Positions 2,192 to 25,758 of a stretch of 27,856 nt of DNA are shown here, in pieces (position 1 is the stretch's first letter; the number at the start of each line of letters is the position of its first letter). Below the pieces are notes generated by a model that saw only the letters and a list, made by a program, of their open reading frames with translations, searched no databases and was not told where the DNA came from. The DNA comes from a virus: IMG/VR virus record IMGVR_UViG_3300043122_000114, positions 1 to 27,856 of that record; one strand, given 5' to 3'. A program made the position numbers and the translations under genes.

Positions 2192-2636
2192 TATGAACCC
2201 AGCATTAAATCGTCTAGCGATCAAACTGAAAGAGTGGCCGAACGGCGCAAGGTACGCTGTCTTGGACATCGAAACAGATCAGGTTTACATAGATTGCGGA
2301 ACACAATACGGGCCCTCCTTTGACTTTACCCAATGGCTCCAAGCCCGCCGAGACTTGGGGTTTGTCATGACGGAGGAAGAGGAGGTCCCGCCAGCGCAGG
2401 AGTGGGGCAAAAGCGTACCCGAAGGAGTCCACAGTAAGTACCACCGCGAAATCAAGCCCGGCGTCTGGGTGGACGTGTACGACGTGCTACACGCCTGGCG
2501 CGTGCAAAATCCGGCATTGCAGCACCTGGTCAAGAAGGCGTTGCAGCCCGGCGGTCGTGGGCACAAAACACGCGAGCAAGACATGATCGATATTGTGGCG
2601 TCCGCGTTGCGGGCTGGGGAGTTGGAGGGTGAGTAA
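2181..2636 (+). CDS. Conserved phage protein with C-terminal DVYDVL...GHK domain, 151 aa
   Basis: The start ATG at 2181 overlaps the preceding gene. The N-terminal half (residues 1-85) includes ARYAVLDIETDQVYIDCGT, a beta-rich stretch not matched to a known family. The C-terminal part (about 95-145) carries WVDVYDVLHAWRVQNPAL and KKALQPGGRGHKTREQDMID. This pattern recurs in many phage proteins of unknown function that lie in early operons, often near recombination genes; this comes from recall and was not searched. The protein looks like a fusion of a variable head to that conserved tail. It overlaps the following gene by eight bases. Confidence 0.7.
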   Translation: MSNDMNPALNRLAIKLKEWPNGARYAVLDIETDQVYIDCGTQYGPSFDFTQWLQARRDLGFVMTEEEEVPPAQEWGKSVPEGVHSKYHREIKPGVWVDVYDVLHAWRVQNPALQHLVKKALQPGGRGHKTREQDMIDIVASALRAGELEGE

Positions 2637-4206
2637 TCTTGCTGAATCGCAGTTCTTCGCCCCAGCCAGCACGGACATGGTCGATAGTCTCATTGGCCGC
2701 TATCGGGAAGAGCGCCAGCGCATGGAGCGCGTGGTAGAGTATGTCTCTGGCGATGACTTCCGGTCGGTGATTTCGTATTTCGAGGATGCCGCCAAGCGGC
2801 AACACCACCAGGGCGGAAATACGCCGAGCTTCAAGCTGGAAAGTGGCCTGGCTGCGCTGGATGCCAGCTACTGGCACCAAGCCCTGAGCCTGACGGACGT
2901 TCTGGATTTCATGCCCACGAAGCGCCGGGAAGAGTGGTTTGATCTGATTCACAACCACAAAGCGCCGGAGTTTGAGGAAAGCGCCGTTCGCGCCACCCTG
3001 GCGGACCTTCTGGCCCAGCGTATGGACTTTCTGGCCGAAAAGGTAGACGGAATTTTCCGAGCCCTGAGCAAGGCGCACGTCACCAATCAGCCGGAGGGAT
3101 TCGGCAAACGCATGATCCTGACCGGCGTGACTAACGACTGGGGCAGCTATTCCCGCAGCCAGACCGGGCACCTGAATGATCTGCGCCAGGTGATTGCGAA
3201 ATTCATGGGGCGCGACGAGCCGGACTGGAATGCAAGCAACCGGGTTGTCGAGATCGCCCGAGCGAACCATCGGGGTGAGTGGGTGCCACTGGATGGCGGG
3301 GCGCTCCGGATTCGGTGCTACAAGAACAGCAATGCCCACCTAGAAGTGCATCCGGATATGGCGTGGCGCCTGAACGAGATCCTGCACCACCTGTACCCGA
3401 CCGCCATTCCATCCCGATTCCGGCAGAAGCCGAAGCGCAAGGTAAAAGAATTTACCTTGATGGAAAGACCTTTACCGTTCGCGGTGCTGGACGTGCTTCA
3501 CCGCCTTGGCCGTGCCTATGACACCGCAGAGCGTAGCCGCCGGCTGATTCCGAACGCTGTCCGAATCGAATCCCACGAAAAGGACAAGCATGTAATCGCC
3601 GAAGTTGAGCGGGTGCTAGAGCTGTTGGGCGGCGTGAAGCAGAACACCAACGCATACAGCTGGTATCAGTTCGACTACGACCCGGAACCGGTCATTAAAG
3701 AGATCGTGTGCACCGGCGTTATCCCTGACCAGAAAAGCCACCAGTTCTACCCGACGCCTGAGCACATTGCCCGGGATGCGGTGGAGCTGGCGGAGATCCG
3801 CACCGCGCACAACTGTCTTGAGCCGAGCGCCGGAACAGGCAACATTGCCGACCTTATAGACGCGCCCTTGCATTGTGTGGAGGTCAGCCCGCTGCACTGT
3901 GCTGTGTTGCGCGAGAAAGGTCACGAGGTCATTCAGGCAGACTTTCTGCAATGGTCAGAGGGGTTACCGAATCTGAAGTTTGACCGCATCGTAATGAACC
4001 CGCCTTACAGCCAGGGGCGATGGCAAGCACACATCGAGCACGCGGCAACCATGCTGCGCCCTGATGGTGTGCTAGTTGCCATCCTCCCGTCCAGCGCCAA
4101 GGGCAAAGACCTGCTGCCGGGCATGAACCTTACCTGGTCGAAGGTCTACGAAAACCAGTTCCGGGGTGCGTCGGTGGATGTTGTTATCATGAGGGCAGAG
4201 AAATGA
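2629..4206 (+). CDS. DUF4942-type protein with C-terminal N6-adenine DNA methyltransferase domain, 525 aa
   Basis: The GTG at 2629 is chosen because GGGGAG lies seven bases upstream and it overlaps the preceding gene slightly; an open stretch extends to 2593 without a better start. Residues 1-370 resemble DUF4942 proteins of phages and mobile elements. Residues 375-525 form a class I methyltransferase: motif I EPSAGTGN near 398-405 binds S-adenosylmethionine, and motif IV NPPY near 457-460 is the catalytic motif of adenine-N6 (and related) DNA methyltransferases. The expected target is DNA adenine, and the likely purpose is protection from host restriction or regulation. No cognate restriction gene is seen. 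The recognition sequence cannot be read from the protein. Confidence 0.8.
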   Translation: MSNLAESQFFAPASTDMVDSLIGRYREERQRMERVVEYVSGDDFRSVISYFEDAAKRQHHQGGNTPSFKLESGLAALDASYWHQALSLTDVLDFMPTKRREEWFDLIHNHKAPEFEESAVRATLADLLAQRMDFLAEKVDGIFRALSKAHVTNQPEGFGKRMILTGVTNDWGSYSRSQTGHLNDLRQVIAKFMGRDEPDWNASNRVVEIARANHRGEWVPLDGGALRIRCYKNSNAHLEVHPDMAWRLNEILHHLYPTAIPSRFRQKPKRKVKEFTLMERPLPFAVLDVLHRLGRAYDTAERSRRLIPNAVRIESHEKDKHVIAEVERVLELLGGVKQNTNAYSWYQFDYDPEPVIKEIVCTGVIPDQKSHQFYPTPEHIARDAVELAEIRTAHNCLEPSAGTGNIADLIDAPLHCVEVSPLHCAVLREKGHEVIQADFLQWSEGLPNLKFDRIVMNPPYSQGRWQAHIEHAATMLRPDGVLVAILPSSAKGKDLLPGMNLTWSKVYENQFRGASVDVVIMRAEK

Positions 4207-7840: not shown

Positions 7841-8011
7841 ATGTTGACATTAGATGAAATTAGAGGGCAGTTGGCGGACAGGAATATAAAAGCTGTCGCT
7901 CAAAAAGCAGGGGTGCACCCAAACGCTGTATACAGGTTCATGAAGGGGCAAAGTAATCCGAGTTACGAGACCGTCCGAAAGCTTTGCGATTACCTGGAGA
8001 AAAGGCAATGA
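7841..8011 (+). CDS. Cro-like XRE-family helix-turn-helix protein, 56 aa
   Basis: The start at ATG 7841 leaves the promoter region non-coding. Nearly the whole protein is one HTH domain: LTLDEIRGQLADRNIKAVAQ, then KAGVHPNAVYRFMKGQ with the recognition helix, then a helix through SYETVRKLCDYLEKRQ. This is the XRE/Cro type. The small size means a DNA-binding domain without a separate oligomerisation part, as in Cro proteins. It probably binds the operators between 7765 and 7830 and shifts transcription between recombination and replication genes. It overlaps the endonuclease gene by four bases. Confidence 0.8.
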   Translation: MLTLDEIRGQLADRNIKAVAQKAGVHPNAVYRFMKGQSNPSYETVRKLCDYLEKRQ

Positions 8012-8553
8012 ACTGGAATGAGATATTTTTGCATCTTCGCGGCAACCTGATCTGGAGGCAAAGGGGAAAGTCGGCATTCAAGACTGAAAAGGAGTGGCGC
8101 AGATGGACTACCCGATACGCTGGGAAGATCGCCGGATGCTCGCATGATGCCAAACGCTCTAATACTCTTTACTGGCAAGTATCATACGGAAAGAAGAGAT
8201 ATTTTGCTCACAACGTAATATGGGAAATGCTATTTGGTGAAATCCCTGAAGGCATGGTTGTTGACCACATTGACGGCAACGGTCTCAACAATAAACCGGA
8301 AAACTTGAGGCTGGTAACAGCGGCTGGCAATCATAAAAATAGGCCGCTTTACTCAAACAACAAAAGCGGAGTGCCTGGCGTTCACTTTGATAGAAAGTCG
8401 GGCCGATGGTATGCCAGAGCTTGCATAAACGGGAAGCGTGAGACTGTGTACAGCGGTCATAGTCAAGAAGAGGCAATGAAAGCTAGGATGGCGGCGAGCG
8501 CCTGTTACGGGTATCACGAAAATCACGGGAGGGTATCGAATGGCGGCATTTAA
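8008..8553 (+). CDS. HNH endonuclease with AP2 DNA-binding domain, 181 aa
   Basis: An HNH nuclease core lies at about residues 66-111: FAHNVIWEMLFGEIPEGM, VVDHIDGNGLNN and NLRLVTAAGNHKN give the paired His (His87), Asp and Asn of the HNH_3 type. A C-terminal AP2-like domain at about 122-170 (SGVPGVHFDRKSGRWYARAC) binds DNA. Such proteins are free-standing homing endonucleases of phages, cutting related genomes that lack the gene. No intron or split gene is evident around it. GGAGAAAAGG precedes the ATG. Its 3' end overlaps the helicase start by 14 bases, so it has been fitted tightly into the operon. Confidence 0.9.
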   Translation: MNWNEIFLHLRGNLIWRQRGKSAFKTEKEWRRWTTRYAGKIAGCSHDAKRSNTLYWQVSYGKKRYFAHNVIWEMLFGEIPEGMVVDHIDGNGLNNKPENLRLVTAAGNHKNRPLYSNNKSGVPGVHFDRKSGRWYARACINGKRETVYSGHSQEEAMKARMAASACYGYHENHGRVSNGGI

Positions 8554-10009
8554 CCTATTCGACGACCAAGCCGAGTTCGTATCAAAACTTCGTCAAGCGC
8601 TAAAAGCTGGCCACAAGTCAATTCTTGGGGTGGCGTCTCCTGCGTTTGGAAAAACCGTTGTTGCAGGGCACATCATTGCTACCGCCAGAGAAAAATCAGA
8701 TGCCACCGCTTGGTTTCTCGTTCACCGCAAAAACCTGTTGCGGCAAACCAGCAAGTCGTTCTGGTCTGCCCATATCGAGCATGGCCTAATCACTAGCGGT
8801 AAAAGCCGCAGCAAACTGCCTGTTCAGGTCGGCACTATCGGTACTGTTTACAGTCGCCGAGACACTCTTGCGCCTCCCAATATCTTGTTTGTGGATGAGG
8901 CGCATCTTGCGAAAGGAAACATGTTCGAAACCGTAATCCGTTGGTGTCTTAATCACGGCTGCATAGTTATCGGATTAACCGGAACGCCGGAGCGTTTAGA
9001 CGGCAAGGCTCTTGGCGATATTTTCGAGGTCATGGTAGAGGCTAGGTCAACGCATTGGCTGATTGGACAGGGCAGGCTATCAAGCTATGAGATGTACTCT
9101 ACAAGCATGCAGCCTGACCTGTCTGGCGTGAAGAAATCTGGCGGTGATTACAACAGAGAGCAGCTTGCCGAAGTAATGGACAACCGCGTTCTAGTGGGTG
9201 ACGCTATCGCCCATTGGCGAAAATACGCTAACAATAAGCGAACGGTGGTCTACTGCGTGAACGTAAAGCACAGCAAGCATACCGCCGAAACATTCAATGC
9301 AGCCGGGATCCCTGCCGTTCACGTTGATGCAGATACGACGGAGACAGAATTAAAAGAAGCGTGCGAGGGATTGGCTTCTGGCCGCTATCTGGTTTTATGC
9401 AACTGCGAGCTCGTGATAGAAGGCTTCGACCTTGGATCTCAGATTGGACGAGACATCACGCTTGAATGTTGCATTTTGCTGCGCCCTACACAGTCATTGG
9501 CTAGATACCTGCAAATGGTATTCAGGGCATTGAGGCGCAAAGATTATCCTGCCGTTATCCTGGATCATGCTGGCTGCGCCATGCGTCACGGTTTACCAGA
9601 TGATGACAGAGAATGGAGCTTAGAAGGACGGAAGAAGAAAAAGCGCAAGGCTGGCAACGATGAGCCAGATGTAAATGTTCAGCAATGCAAGCACTGCTTC
9701 TTTATATTTAGGCCGGGGCCGGATAAATGCCCGTCTTGCGGCAAGCCAGTAGAGAAAAAAACACCTGCCGAGCTACGCCAAATAGATGGCGAGCTGGTAA
9801 AGATCGATGCGGAAGCCATAAGAAGAGAGCGAAAACGCGACCAAGGTAAGGCCAGAGGGCTGCGCGAACTGATAGAGCTTGGCGTTCGTCGCGGCATGAA
9901 AAATCCTAGCGGGTGGGCGGTCAACGTCCATGCGGCAAGACAGGGGCGCAAGCCTTCGAGGGTAGACTATCAACAGGCCAAGCAAATGCTGGCGGAGGTG
10001 AGGGCGTGA
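8540..10009 (+). CDS. SF2 DEAH-type helicase with C-terminal zinc ribbon, 489 aa
   Basis: Superfamily 2 motifs appear in order: Walker A SPAFGKT (GKT at 37-39), DEAH at 119-122, GLTGTPERL near 144-152, VYCVNVKHSKHTAETF near 235, and motif VI QMVFRALR near 325-332. Motif VI usually reads QxxGRxxR, so the Gly is replaced by Phe here. A four-cysteine ribbon (CKHC and CPSC) lies near 382-400, followed by a charged helical tail. Phage helicases of this type probably unwind branched or origin DNA with ATP. GGGAGGG lies six bases before the ATG. The gene sits between HNH and VRR-NUC genes upstream of the primase. Confidence 0.88.
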   Translation: MAAFNLFDDQAEFVSKLRQALKAGHKSILGVASPAFGKTVVAGHIIATAREKSDATAWFLVHRKNLLRQTSKSFWSAHIEHGLITSGKSRSKLPVQVGTIGTVYSRRDTLAPPNILFVDEAHLAKGNMFETVIRWCLNHGCIVIGLTGTPERLDGKALGDIFEVMVEARSTHWLIGQGRLSSYEMYSTSMQPDLSGVKKSGGDYNREQLAEVMDNRVLVGDAIAHWRKYANNKRTVVYCVNVKHSKHTAETFNAAGIPAVHVDADTTETELKEACEGLASGRYLVLCNCELVIEGFDLGSQIGRDITLECCILLRPTQSLARYLQMVFRALRRKDYPAVILDHAGCAMRHGLPDDDREWSLEGRKKKKRKAGNDEPDVNVQQCKHCFFIFRPGPDKCPSCGKPVEKKTPAELRQIDGELVKIDAEAIRRERKRDQGKARGLRELIELGVRRGMKNPSGWAVNVHAARQGRKPSRVDYQQAKQMLAEVRA

Positions 10010-10411: not shown

Positions 10412-10440
10412 GACCTCTTACACCGTTGACCGAGGTACGC

Positions 10441-13089
10441 ATGACAACCAAACCGATTGACTGGTATGCCCGCCGTTACACTGAGAAGTACGGCTTCTCA
10501 CTGGTTCCGATTGAGCCAGGCCGCAAGTTCCCAAGCTCTAAAGACTGGGGCAAGCACGTTATCGAAGACAGCAAGGCGGCAACCGAATTCTACCGTGACA
10601 ACCAAAACTGGAATATGGGTCTGGCGTTAGGCCCGTCTGGGATGTGCAGTCTTGATATCGACTGCGAGGAGTCGTTTCAGTCCATCCTGGAAGAGTTCGG
10701 CATCGACCCGGAACCGCTTTGGGCATTCCCCGCGATACAGGGGCGAGACAAAGGGCGGCGGTTGCTGTTCCGTGTGCCCGACAACGTATCGTTGCCATAC
10801 GCCAAGCTGAACTGGAAGCGCGAAGACGACACCAGCAAGTCATACACCGTATTCGAGTTGCGGGCCGCGTGCGACGGCAAGCAGCGCCAGGACGTTCTGC
10901 CGCCGTCCATACACCCCGACACCGGCAAGCCCTACAAGTGGATCGTTCAGCCGCCCAAACCAGACGAGCCATGGCCAACGCCTCCCGATTGGCTGCTGGC
11001 GATGTGGACGGCGTGGGATTCCTTCAAGCCACAACTGCAAGCAGCCTGCCCATGGGCACCGAAGCCAGAGCCTGTGCGTGCCAAGGCCAAGTCGAAGCAG
11101 GCAAACACTGGCGGCGACAACATCATACAGGCATTCGTGGACGCTCACGACTTACGCATGACGCTGGAGCAATATGGGTACACGCGCAAAGGCCGTAGTC
11201 GTTACCTGAGCCCGCACACGACGACCAAGCTCCCCGGCGTTGTCTTGTTCCCTGACGAGGCCAGCTGCTGGATTCATCATGCGTCCGACCCGCTGTGCTC
11301 CGAGGAATCCGGGCATCCGGTAAACGCCTTCGACCTTTTCTGCTACTACGAACATGGCGGTGACGTGAGCAAGGCGGTAAAGGCGGCAGCGGACCTTCTG
11401 GGCATGAAGCCTGAACGCAAGCGCACGCCAGAAGCCGAAGCCGTCAACCAGGGCAAGCCAGCACCAACAGAGGAGTCAGCTACTGAGCCATCAGCGCCAT
11501 TCCGTTGCCTCGGCTACATGGGAAACGCTTACTTTTACTTGCCGCGCGGCACTGAGCAAGTGGCGGAGATTAAGCGAGGCAGCCACACAAGCCCATCAGA
11601 GCTTCTAAGTCTTGCTCCTATCGAATGGTGGGAGATGGCCTACCCAAAAGGCGACAAGGGCGGCACAGATTGGTACGCGGCCGCTAACGACTGCATGCGT
11701 GGCTGTGAGCGCAAAGGGATATACAGTCCTGACCGCGAGCGCGGGCGGGGCGCATGGTATGACAAGGGCAAGGCTGTACTGCATCTCGGCAACAAGCTAC
11801 TGATTGACGGGCAAGCAACGCCAATTGCAGAGCATGAGTCGAGCTTCATTTACACACGGCAGGCGCCCCTTGAGCATGGCGCGGACGCCGTGCCGGCTGA
11901 CGATAATACGGCGGCCGATATAGCCGAACTGTTCGAGCAACTGAGATGGCATAAGCCGGTACATGCGCAACTGTTGGCTGGTTGGTGCCTTCTGGCCCCG
12001 ATATGCGGCGCGCTATCCTGGCGGCCTCACGTCTGGATTACAGCGCAGCGTGGGGCGGGTAAGTCATGGATTCAGGATCACATCATACAGCCGCTCCTTG
12101 GGCCTTCTGCGCTCATGGTGCAAGGGAGCACAACGGAGGCCGGCATACGTCAGAAGCTAAAGCAGGACGCGCGCCCTATCGTGTTTGACGAGGCCGAGAG
12201 CGAAGACCAACGGAGCCAGCACCGTATGCAGACAGTCATCGAGCTGGCGCGGCAGTCGTCCAGTGACAGCACCGCCGAGATTATCAAGGGCACCGTAAAC
12301 GGTCATGGCATGGCCTTCCGTATGCGTTCCATGTTCTTGCTCGGCTCGGTGAACGTGTCGCTGTCTCAGGCGGCGGATGAGTCCCGCTTTTCTATTTTGT
12401 CCATTGCCACACCCGAGAAAACGCCGGACGAAATTGCACGTTTTGACGCCTTCGGCAAGCGCGTTGACAACACGCTGACGGACGAGGTTTGTGCCTCCAT
12501 CCGTGCGCGCGCCTATCAACTCATGCCGGTCATACGCGCCAACGCCAAGACGTTTGCTAGGGCGGTTGCAGAGGTTCTTGGTAGTCAGCGTCTGGGTGAC
12601 CAAGTGGGTACGCTTATCGCGGGGGCTTGCGCCTATTACAGAGACGACGAAATCAGTCTGGATGACGCTCGAAAGTGGGTGCGCGACATGGACTTCTCGG
12701 ACGCTAGGGAGGCGGAACAGGTGAGCGATGAGGAGAGCTGCTTGCAACGGATCTTGCAATCACAGGTGCGATTCGATTCTGAACGCGGACAGCTTGCCAG
12801 GTCGCTTGGCGAGGTGGTTGCCGCTGCCAGCGGATCGGATCACATAGGCGGGCTGACGGCGGCTGATGCAAACGACATTTTGAAGCGCTACGGCTTGATG
12901 ATTGATGGGTCTTTTTTGGTGGTCGCCAACAAGCACGCTGAACTTGAGCGACTACTTAAAGATACGCCGTGGGGGTCGGGGTGGCGTCGAATCCTTGGCC
13001 GAATCGAGGGCGCAACTTCAACACCGGAGGCTGTCAGGTTTGCAGGAACACGAAGCCGAGCAGTCTCAATTCCCTTAAAATTTATCTAA
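10441..13089 (+). CDS. Bifunctional primase-polymerase/helicase replication protein, 882 aa
   Basis: The ATG at 10441 (GAGG six bases upstream) is preferred over a TTG at 10426. Residues 1-190 form a prim-pol (AEP) domain with SLDID (Asp72, Asp74) and VLPPSIHP near 152-159. The usual GxHxYF motif reads GRRLLFRVP at 105-113, lacking the His. A middle part (about 230-330) includes a Cys/His segment (SCWIHHASDPLC). The C-terminal helicase has Walker A GAGKSW near 538-543, Walker B IVFDEAE with Asp583, and a sensor-like FLLGSVN near 631-637. It would prime and unwind at the phage origin, and the repeat cluster just downstream is its likely target. Confidence 0.88.
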   Translation: MTTKPIDWYARRYTEKYGFSLVPIEPGRKFPSSKDWGKHVIEDSKAATEFYRDNQNWNMGLALGPSGMCSLDIDCEESFQSILEEFGIDPEPLWAFPAIQGRDKGRRLLFRVPDNVSLPYAKLNWKREDDTSKSYTVFELRAACDGKQRQDVLPPSIHPDTGKPYKWIVQPPKPDEPWPTPPDWLLAMWTAWDSFKPQLQAACPWAPKPEPVRAKAKSKQANTGGDNIIQAFVDAHDLRMTLEQYGYTRKGRSRYLSPHTTTKLPGVVLFPDEASCWIHHASDPLCSEESGHPVNAFDLFCYYEHGGDVSKAVKAAADLLGMKPERKRTPEAEAVNQGKPAPTEESATEPSAPFRCLGYMGNAYFYLPRGTEQVAEIKRGSHTSPSELLSLAPIEWWEMAYPKGDKGGTDWYAAANDCMRGCERKGIYSPDRERGRGAWYDKGKAVLHLGNKLLIDGQATPIAEHESSFIYTRQAPLEHGADAVPADDNTAADIAELFEQLRWHKPVHAQLLAGWCLLAPICGALSWRPHVWITAQRGAGKSWIQDHIIQPLLGPSALMVQGSTTEAGIRQKLKQDARPIVFDEAESEDQRSQHRMQTVIELARQSSSDSTAEIIKGTVNGHGMAFRMRSMFLLGSVNVSLSQAADESRFSILSIATPEKTPDEIARFDAFGKRVDNTLTDEVCASIRARAYQLMPVIRANAKTFARAVAEVLGSQRLGDQVGTLIAGACAYYRDDEISLDDARKWVRDMDFSDAREAEQVSDEESCLQRILQSQVRFDSERGQLARSLGEVVAAASGSDHIGGLTAADANDILKRYGLMIDGSFLVVANKHAELERLLKDTPWGSGWRRILGRIEGATSTPEAVRFAGTRSRAVSIPLKFI

Positions 13090-13090
13090 A

Positions 13091-13147
13091 GCGTCACGCT
13101 TCTGTGGCACTGTGACGCCCCGCGCAAGTGATTGTGACGGGGTTTTT
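13091..13147 (+). terminator. Inverted repeat and probable terminator after the primase gene
   Basis: GCGTCAC (13091-13097) pairs perfectly with GTGACGC (13112-13118). Overlapping it, CCCCG (13118-13122) pairs with CGGGG (13138-13142) and is followed by TTTTT. The second hairpin is a weak intrinsic terminator. The first arms are also members of the repeat cluster, so the two functions may overlap. Confidence 0.5.
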
Positions 13148-13364
13148 CTTTTAATATCATGCGTTTAACTGTGGTGTCACGTTTGGCACGTCACAGCTCG
13201 CGCAATACATACTATAAGGAATTTAGAGACAGGCATACACAGATAGACACAGTTCTCTATATATATATCTATTTATCGTGACAAATGTGTCATGTGTGTC
13301 AACGCTTACTCTCCCAAGGGATGCAGGCGTCACGGAGGGCGTCACAGTTGATTTTAAGCGTGAC
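13091..13364. other. Candidate replication origin: GTGAC/GTCAC repeat cluster with AT-rich tract
   Basis: Nine GTGAC/GTCAC pentamers lie at 13093, 13112, 13134, 13176, 13190, 13278, 13329, 13341 and 13360; about 0.5 would be expected by chance in 270 bases. Four extend to GCGTCAC or GTGACGC. Two GTGTCA copies (13287, 13296) add to the set. Between the two groups lies an AT tract (about 13251-13276, with an uninterrupted TATATATAT run), a natural unwinding element. The region has no convincing gene and follows the primase-helicase gene. Iterons flanking an AT-rich tract next to the initiator gene is the classic origin layout; origin function is inferred. Confidence 0.6.
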
Positions 13365-13378
13365 AGCAGCAAAAACCC

Positions 13379-13406
13379 TTGCCCCACACTCCTCAGTGTG
13401 TATAAT
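13379..13406 (+). promoter_or_regulatory. Promoter with a palindrome filling its spacer
   Basis: TTGCCC (13379-13384), a 16-base spacer and a perfect TATAAT (13401-13406). The spacer is exactly the inverted repeat CACACT-CCTC-AGTGTG (13385-13400), an ideal repressor site. It would drive the leader region and the gene at 13526. Confidence 0.65.
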
Positions 13407-13446
13407 ATGGATCATAGAGTGATGACGGCGAGAAGTGGTAAGCGAA

Positions 13447-13500
13447 ATGGCAGATTTCTGCAAAGACCTGACATACATTCCACGCAAGTCCGCCCACTGA
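13447..13500 (+). CDS. Possible 17-residue leader peptide
   Basis: A short reading frame, MADFCKDLTYIPRKSAH, starts about 35 bases after the predicted transcription start. Its stop lies within a hairpin, CCGCC (13490-13494) with GGCGG (13501-13505). The ribosome site is weak. A leader-peptide role for the gene at 13526 is possible but unproven; it may be a chance frame. Confidence 0.25.
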   Translation: MADFCKDLTYIPRKSAH

Positions 13501-13525
13501 GGCGGCCACAACCACGGAGACCAAC

Positions 13526-13747
13526 ATGCAACAAAACCACCGAGCAAACGTCTGGATCACCCCAGAAACCCGCGCCCACCTGGTAGCCATAGGACGCGCT
13601 CACGGAGCCGCAGAAGGCCGGGAGATGTCGCCGGGTATTCGGGTGGCGGCTAAGTACCATGAGAGGCTTGTGGAGGCGCTAAAGATCGTTGGCGCAGATT
13701 GCGCTGACGCCCGCGCCCTGCTTAAAGAGATTGAGGAGGCGAGATGA
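13526..13747 (+). CDS. Small protein, possible ribbon-helix-helix regulator, 73 aa
   Basis: It starts at an ATG with GGAGA seven bases upstream. The N-terminus reads NVWITPETRAHLVAIGRAHG, a short beta-strand followed by a helix as in ribbon-helix-helix proteins. SPGIRVAAKYHERLVEALKI then supplies a second and longer helix. Such small proteins bind palindromic operators as dimers. The palindrome in the promoter spacer at 13385-13400 is therefore a plausible autoregulatory site. The assignment rests on pattern only. It overlaps the next gene by ATGA. Confidence 0.6.
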   Translation: MQQNHRANVWITPETRAHLVAIGRAHGAAEGREMSPGIRVAAKYHERLVEALKIVGADCADARALLKEIEEAR

Positions 13748-25678: not shown

Positions 25679-25730
25679 TGACCGGCTAGCCCGCAAGCGA
25701 AAGGCGGCCTCATCCACCGCTTGCCGGTCA
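25679..25730. other. Long imperfect hairpin between tail-tube and chaperone genes
   Basis: TGACCG (25679-25684) pairs with CGGTCA (25725-25730), and GCAAGCG (25693-25699) pairs with CGCTTGC (25718-25724), with a seven-base bulge between. Only CTTT follows, so termination would be weak. It may reduce transcription from tube to chaperone genes or stabilise the tube mRNA. Confidence 0.5.
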
Positions 25731-25758
25731 TCTTTCCGGATGCATAGCGAGGCATGAT

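Follow-up and report, generated by a model that had tools for sequence, protein, structure and literature searches.

Iteron arrays beside an initiator helicase gene: a probable replication origin in a family of phages and small plasmids

The SaPI and SCCmec elements already provide a precedent for an initiator helicase whose gene is followed by iterons and whose C-terminal domain reads them. Their self-loading AAA+ initiator helicases, sometimes fused to a primase (SaPIbov1 Rep, SaPI5 PriRep1, Cch and Cch2), recognise short iterons directly downstream of their own gene via the C-terminal domain (PMC7581432). The opposite orientation of the repeats in SaPI origins is said to direct two head-to-head hexamers, with SV40 as a comparable case (PMC9894130). 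P4 alpha unites primase, helicase and an origin-repeat-binding winged-helix domain in one protein, and pRN1 and Bordetella BIP-1/BPP-1 join an AEP/Prim-Pol, a helicase and a C-terminal winged helix, with the origin directly downstream (PMC4234260). For pRN1 and BIP-1/BPP-1, a large stem-loop was described and origin iterons were not found; stem-loop recognition by such proteins was proposed (PMC4234260). In the PLE satellites of Vibrio cholerae, the RepA_N DNA-binding domain and the iterons are exchanged together, and the origin needs its cognate RepA (PMC8263062).

Here we analyse the 27,856 nucleotides of the viral IMG/VR record IMGVR_UViG_3300043122_000114 (positions 1 to 27,856; hereafter the window). 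A preliminary description had proposed that a cluster of GTGAC/GTCAC pentamers at 13091-13364 is a probable phage origin read by the prim-pol/helicase encoded upstream. Arrays in relatives, including displaced ones, support this proposal, without replication or binding data. The best reading is a SaPI/P4-like initiator-origin replicon with a C-terminal domain reading the iterons, binding and replication both being inferred. We put the probability that 13091-13364 is a phage origin of the following kind at about 0.88. The winged-helix-like C-terminal domain of the initiator would bind GTGAC(G/A) iterons on either side of a TA tract, two oppositely oriented helicase rings would assemble and open the AT-rich middle, and the N-terminal Prim-Pol would then prime. 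Iteron binding, ring loading, melting, priming and origin activity are all inferred steps, for which there are no replication or binding data.

The case from the window by itself is modest. Nine pentamers had been counted in 272 bases against about 0.5 expected, and all nine were recovered. Over the whole window, GTGAC/GTCAC occurs at the background rate (48 observed versus 46.5 expected from shuffles), which corresponds to about 0.47 expected in 273 bases; the cluster is thus a roughly twenty-fold local enrichment. Dinucleotide-shuffling the intergenic stretch 2000 times gave at most 6 copies of GTGAC and at most 8 of any pentamer. When the whole window was shuffled, some G+C-rich self-overlapping pentamer often reached 9-10 copies per equal-size window, and so the pentamer count alone is no proof of function. 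Because such words clump, this any-pentamer control on whole-window shuffles was not discriminating and was dropped. The best 6-mer count in the window array is 6. It is the relatives that make the case strong.

The proposed origin lies within a non-coding stretch, 13090-13525, that runs from the initiator stop to the next plausible gene (13526-13747) and holds only small overlapping ORFs without support. From left to right, it consists of outer left iterons at 13091-13138 (GTCAC at 13093-, GTGAC at 13112+ and 13134+), inner left iterons at 13174-13196 (13176- and 13190-), a TA tract, inner right iterons on the plus strand at 13278-13304, and outer right iterons at 13329-13364 (GTCAC at 13329- and 13341-, GTGAC at 13360+). 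The TA-rich tract between the two groups, already described beforehand, is present at about 13253-13274 (CTCTATATATATATCTATTTAT) and is a candidate unwinding element, judged by its sequence and by the AT-rich placement in relatives. To its right, the GTGAC at 13278+ begins a run with 9-bp spacing, GTGACAAAT/GTGTCATGT/GTGTCAACG (13278-13304), continued by degenerate GTGTCA sites at 13287 and 13296. A repeat scan revealed no second, distant array in the window, and a stem-loop of about 100 bp downstream of the gene, of the pRN1/BIP-1 type, was not met; there are only iteron arrays and short hairpins. The GC skew of the window appears to track gene direction and was left out of the origin case.

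Several other elements lie in or near the array. Two stable RNA hairpins at 13091-13146 (z -2.9) take in the three left iterons. After the second of these (CCCCG...CGGGG) comes TTTTTCTTTT, resembling a terminator for the initiator gene, and a similar arrangement occurs in two relatives (L028 and L037). Directly right of the array, a promoter-like TTGCCC-16-TATAAT at 13379-13406 faces the downstream genes; a TATAAT box likewise lies to the right of the array in the 76%-identity relative discussed below (L003). The 73-aa ORF at 13526-13747 is recognisable in that relative only (42% identity) among all loci fetched.

The placement right after the prim-pol/helicase gene was likewise confirmed, the ORF at 10426-13089 (plus strand) stopping just upstream. 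The protein described earlier was borne out as a Prim-Pol/AAA+ helicase by Pfam, PHROG and AlphaFold2, except for its size: 882 aa had been given for what is an 887-aa ORF, the choice of start codon being the sole difference. Its N-terminus is a Prim-Pol domain (aa 15-189; Pfam PF09250, E 2.9e-21), followed by AAA+ helicase motifs (Walker A GAGKS near aa 543-547, Walker B FDEAE near aa 587-591), and aa 356-887 match the DNA primase family phrog_35358 (E 5.5e-127). The DUF927 and Primase_Cterm (P4/D5) models gave no match to the window protein, the P4-family match in phage phi1422 was sub-threshold only (E 0.061), and a sequence-profile search of the PDB gave no meaningful helicase match.

An AlphaFold2 model of the C-terminal 545 residues (pLDDT 87.8) found its best fold match in SCCmec Cch (5dgk; Z 15.4, 420 residues aligned, rmsd 7.0), followed by SaPI5 Rep (Z 14.6), and Foldseek matched the helicase half to the SaPI/SCCmec helicase fold (E 1.9e-7). 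The window protein thus has a predicted AAA+ initiator helicase fold of the SaPI/SCCmec type, at the fold level only. Its C-terminal winged-helix-like domain (about aa 765-887; 12718-13086, plus strand) is the inferred iteron reader, from its fold and from the divergence block between two relatives described below. Modelled alone (pLDDT 96.8), it gave no significant Foldseek match. When Foldseek candidates were realigned by VIA, it matched SaPIbov1 Rep 451-552 weakly (Z 4.3, 86 residues, rmsd 3.6); the other leading candidates were a DUF1528 domain and a pCW3 relaxosome protein, with Cch lower in the ranking (Z 3.2). With Z at most 4.3, the model is suggestive, not proof, of a relationship to the winged-helix domain of SaPIbov1 Rep. 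In terms of the three-part plan of P4 alpha and pRN1, Prim-Pol and AAA+ helicase are met, while the winged helix rests on that same weak match. A 140-aa family of unknown function, phrog_30955, matches only the last 60 initiator residues (E 6e-4), which looks as if the C-terminal domain existed alone; a tblastn search of named phages found no stand-alone copy, every match lying within an initiator gene.

As in the SaPI Rep-ori system, the present locus has an iteron origin proposed directly downstream of the gene, an AT-rich stretch and repeats in opposite orientations, all of which were tested and met. It differs in that its replicons are found in phages with their own capsid genes and in small plasmids, not in staphylococcal satellites. 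Nor is it a satellite that depends on a helper phage for mobilisation, since genes for terminase, portal and major head protein lie further right in the window itself. Compared with the SaPI/SCCmec helicases, sequence identity is about 8-12%, there is no DUF927 or Primase_Cterm match, and the arrays typically have 9-13 sites with a lineage-specific word. Since the protein lies outside their sequence families, we file it as a variant that works like the SaPI helicases, not as a member. P4 alpha has a TOPRIM primase, whereas the window clade has a Prim-Pol; unlike pRN1 and BIP-1/BPP-1, the present family has iteron arrays.

To survey the arrays, relatives were collected by an alignment search that gave 79 viral contigs and later about 120 more, some overlapping, and a genome scan added 80 bacterial contigs. 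An array was called when at least 6 copies of one 6-mer occurred in the 400 bases after the gene, and helicases were clustered at 80% identity. A dense short-repeat array directly follows the gene in 47 of 98 helicase clusters (48%), compared with 2-3% of control stretches at the gene end or further downstream. At least 8 copies were found in 28 clusters and in no control stretch (clustered test), and a few of the low-count arrays may be chance cases. Among unclustered loci, the best 6-mer reached up to 12 copies in the 450 bases after the gene, and at least 7 copies of the best 6-mer occurred in only 20 of 2334 control windows taken from those loci. In 46 of the 47 clusters, the outermost array sites enclose the AT-richest 24-mer. 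Absence of the repeats in phages with an orthologous primase had been named beforehand as grounds for refuting the origin; that about half of the clusters carry an array at this position answers this, as do the displaced arrays of complete genomes described below. Distant homologs on a Phaeobacter plasmid have no array.

The word itself is not kept. A relative with a 76% identical protein (L003) carries GTAGTC/GTAGAC repeats after the same gene, around a similar TA tract, and one with a 58% identical protein (L004) carries GTAACG repeats in the same setting. Named phages follow the same plan with CTAACGG (Synechococcus phage S-H1), CTTACA/TGCTAA (Pararheinheimera phage KLER1-1) and GGTAACA (phi1422, 12 copies). 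The exact GTGAC as a family-wide conserved motif was ruled out, being absent or nearly so in the L003 and L004 arrays. The suggestion that the repeat motif may define a new iteron family holds only in part, GTGAC being one of many lineage-specific versions; judged by the sequences, what characterises the family is a constant layout in which the word varies. The N-termini ahead of these arrays also vary: Prim-Pol in the window clade, a zinc-ribbon or TOPRIM/CHC2 in S-H1, phi1422 and KLER1-1, and none in Arsenophonus plasmids. Because arrays occur behind Prim-Pol, CHC2/TOPRIM and primase-less genes, the common factor is the shared helicase and C-terminal half.

We then consider the layout. Pooled over 59 non-redundant arrays, the spacing of same-orientation sites peaks at 8-12 bp, longer distances recurring too, and the commonest spacing is 9 bp (89 pairs, versus 26 in the largest bin of the jittered control). 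Many arrays place an inner pair on each side of the AT tract and an outer group beyond each pair. In the Bdellovibrio phage phi1422, all 12 sites are mirror-symmetric, forming six pairs with one common centre, and the 12 sites of the Arsenophonus plasmid paNv_CAN17 likewise form six pairs around one mirror centre. In the window, the symmetry is partial: 13093/13360 and 13112/13341 both sum to 26453 and 13176/13278 to 26454, so that 6 of 9 sites are paired within 1 base (simulated p = 0.023; p 0.28 with no tolerance). The per-locus test is weak overall, with p < 0.05 in only 10 of 65 loci, owing to variable left halves and to near-palindromic words that confuse strand calls. The layout argument is carried by the pooled spacing and the perfect cases, not by per-locus tests. 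In phages the inner sites face outward, but in the Arsenophonus plasmids they face inward, and hence the inner arrangement is not universal. By analogy with SaPI and SV40 origins, the mirror layout would fit two oppositely oriented rings, which is an inference.

About half of the clusters have no adjacent array, and for most of these there is no complete genome in which to locate one. In whole-genome repeat scans of 6 complete phage genomes, the top repeat cluster was the array in 6 of 6. It lies directly downstream of the gene in phi1422, S-H1 and KLER1-1, and GTAAC-type arrays are displaced in the other three, being directly upstream of the gene in Acinetobacter Acjo_20, 1.6 kb downstream in Serratia MQ-4 and 12 kb away in Bordetella PY223. 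Displaced arrays were also found among exceptions on genome contigs (L097, L098, L124, L141 and L159). One of these, on a Verrucomicrobiaceae contig (L124:3690-3977), has the unusual word CTTTGC in 10 copies, about 0.9 kb downstream of the initiator.

If the C-terminal domain reads the iterons, a change of word should be seen together with a change of that domain. Close relatives were defined by helicase regions at least 95% identical; the pairs come from only three switches and are not independent. C-terminal identity in same-word close pairs had a mean of 0.98 and a minimum of 0.87, and in different-word close pairs a mean of 0.75 and a maximum of 0.88. The motif changed in four close pairs, and the C-terminal domain diverged each time. 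In L074 and L090, the proteins have 2 differences in aa 343-798 versus 37 in aa 799-887, and the DNA, 91-100% identical outside, falls to 33-73% from -270 to +270 of the stop codon as the word changes from CGTAACA to CGTCAGA. As read from the alignment, this is a clean exchanged block comprising the last ~90 codons and the whole array. The two versions recur in contigs from several metagenomes, and this speaks against a chimeric assembly. In L068/L072, CCTAAC sites are replaced by CCTCAC with much of the intervening DNA unchanged, and in L032/L033 the site positions are kept as GTAACA becomes GTATAC. The Arsenophonus plasmids paPv13 and paNv_CAN17 have helicases 90-99% identical, C-terminal domains 63% identical and the words GCTAAC and GTTGTA, and their DNA identity is back to 95-98% about 400 bases past the stop.

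The repeats, their position, layout and conservation, and their co-exchange with the C-terminal domain can thus be read from the sequences. From co-exchange, without binding data, we infer that the iteron binder, suggested beforehand to be the 882-aa protein, is narrowed to the C-terminal ~90-120 residues, although neighbouring sequences can also be exchanged together merely because they are linked. The PLE RepA is an unrelated initiator with an N-terminal DNA-binding domain, and its exchange is experimental, whereas ours rests on sequence alone.

The repeats might instead be operators or terminators between the replication gene and the downstream genes, bound by a repressor such as the 73-aa product of 13526-13747. 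The array does lie between genes, with the promoter-like site at 13379-13406 just to its right and its left iterons in stable hairpins. However, among the loci fetched the 73-aa ORF has a counterpart in only one other, and the downstream genes vary between phages while the helicase gene is the only constant neighbour. The array is upstream of that gene in Acjo_20 and further away in MQ-4 and PY223, and it changes along with the helicase's own C-terminal domain. We regard this explanation as highly unlikely.

The Arsenophonus plasmids bear on a second alternative. When plasmid proteins were searched, the helicase half turned up in Arsenophonus nasoniae, on plasmids of 7.9-11.6 kb, as proteins of 584-616 aa without a primase domain, with arrays of 11-13 sites beginning about 50-75 bases past the stop codon. 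No other recognisable replication gene is present in their listed annotation; since PLSDB gene tables are incomplete, an unlisted one cannot be excluded. Helicase and array are apparently the only replication module of these mini-plasmids, whose replication by it is inferred. Co-resident plasmids use different words: paPv13 (GCTAAC) and paPv15 (GGTAAC) in strain aPv, CAN17 (GTTGTA) and CAN18 (ATTACA) in strain aNv_CAN. In a small sample, this fits incompatibility as a pressure for change. It would also suit an array that is a partition (centromere) or incompatibility locus and not an origin, and iteron arrays do serve as centromeres in some plasmids. But no partition gene pair adjoins the array in the window, and the mini-plasmids have no other replication gene listed, which leaves this alternative with very little chance of being right. 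That the locus is an origin whose iterons are read by another protein, the DEAD/DEAH-type helicase of 8540-10009 (its gene lies upstream here and in several relatives) or a host initiator, with the C-terminal linkage as hitchhiking, is scarcely credible, given that the mini-plasmids have the initiator homolog and array and none of the other phage replication genes, and that the L074/L090 exchange begins within the initiator gene at the C-terminal domain. Most of these Arsenophonus plasmids carry a protelomerase gene. Six loci (L300, L301, L303, L304, L306 and L307) combine a protelomerase with this replicon, in some with a terminase small subunit, and are possibly phage-satellite-like linear plasmids.

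Returning to the origin read by its upstream initiator, the array layout is conserved in the family, while the iteron word changes in step with the C-terminal domain, in some cases through recombination of a single cassette. We lean towards a more general form of this, with appreciable doubt: a swappable cassette of the ~90-residue C-terminal domain and a mirror-symmetric array of ~12 sites would be replaced or re-worded as a unit, with layout and helicase fixed, giving many mutually incompatible initiator-origin pairs, with competition among replicons sharing a cell, or origin-targeting enemies, as the probable driver.

Our literature search found no paper that combines iterons with Prim-Pol phages and, in searchable papers, no origin proposed for these phages; neither an origin nor iterons are mentioned in the phi1422 genome paper. 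Within the literature searched, what is new is the assignment of an origin to this phage family, its occurrence behind three types of N-terminus and the extent to which the word varies within one layout. If the reading is true, the origin could be located from sequence in a large group of mostly metagenomic phages, near-identical helicases with different words form a data set for how the C-terminal domain reads DNA, and the cassette offers compact, mutually independent replicons. The Arsenophonus plasmids suggest a cause of word divergence, in that replicons sharing a cell need different words. The iteron arrays also qualify the published idea that such AEP-primase initiators recognise stem-loops, not iterons (PMC4234260).

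Three other features of the window were noted. An Rfam search returned only an unrelated int-alpA match at 25679-25743 (RF02996, 36.3 bits, gathering 35.8). Beside the replication genes, 7984-8553 encodes an HNH_3 and AP2-like endonuclease of the homing-endonuclease type; in Vibrio, an origin-directed nuclease cuts PLE origins (PMC8263062), and a link of this gene to origin turnover is conceivable on that ground. A large DNA methyltransferase-like gene lies at 2593-4206 (phrog_6263, E 3.8e-191).
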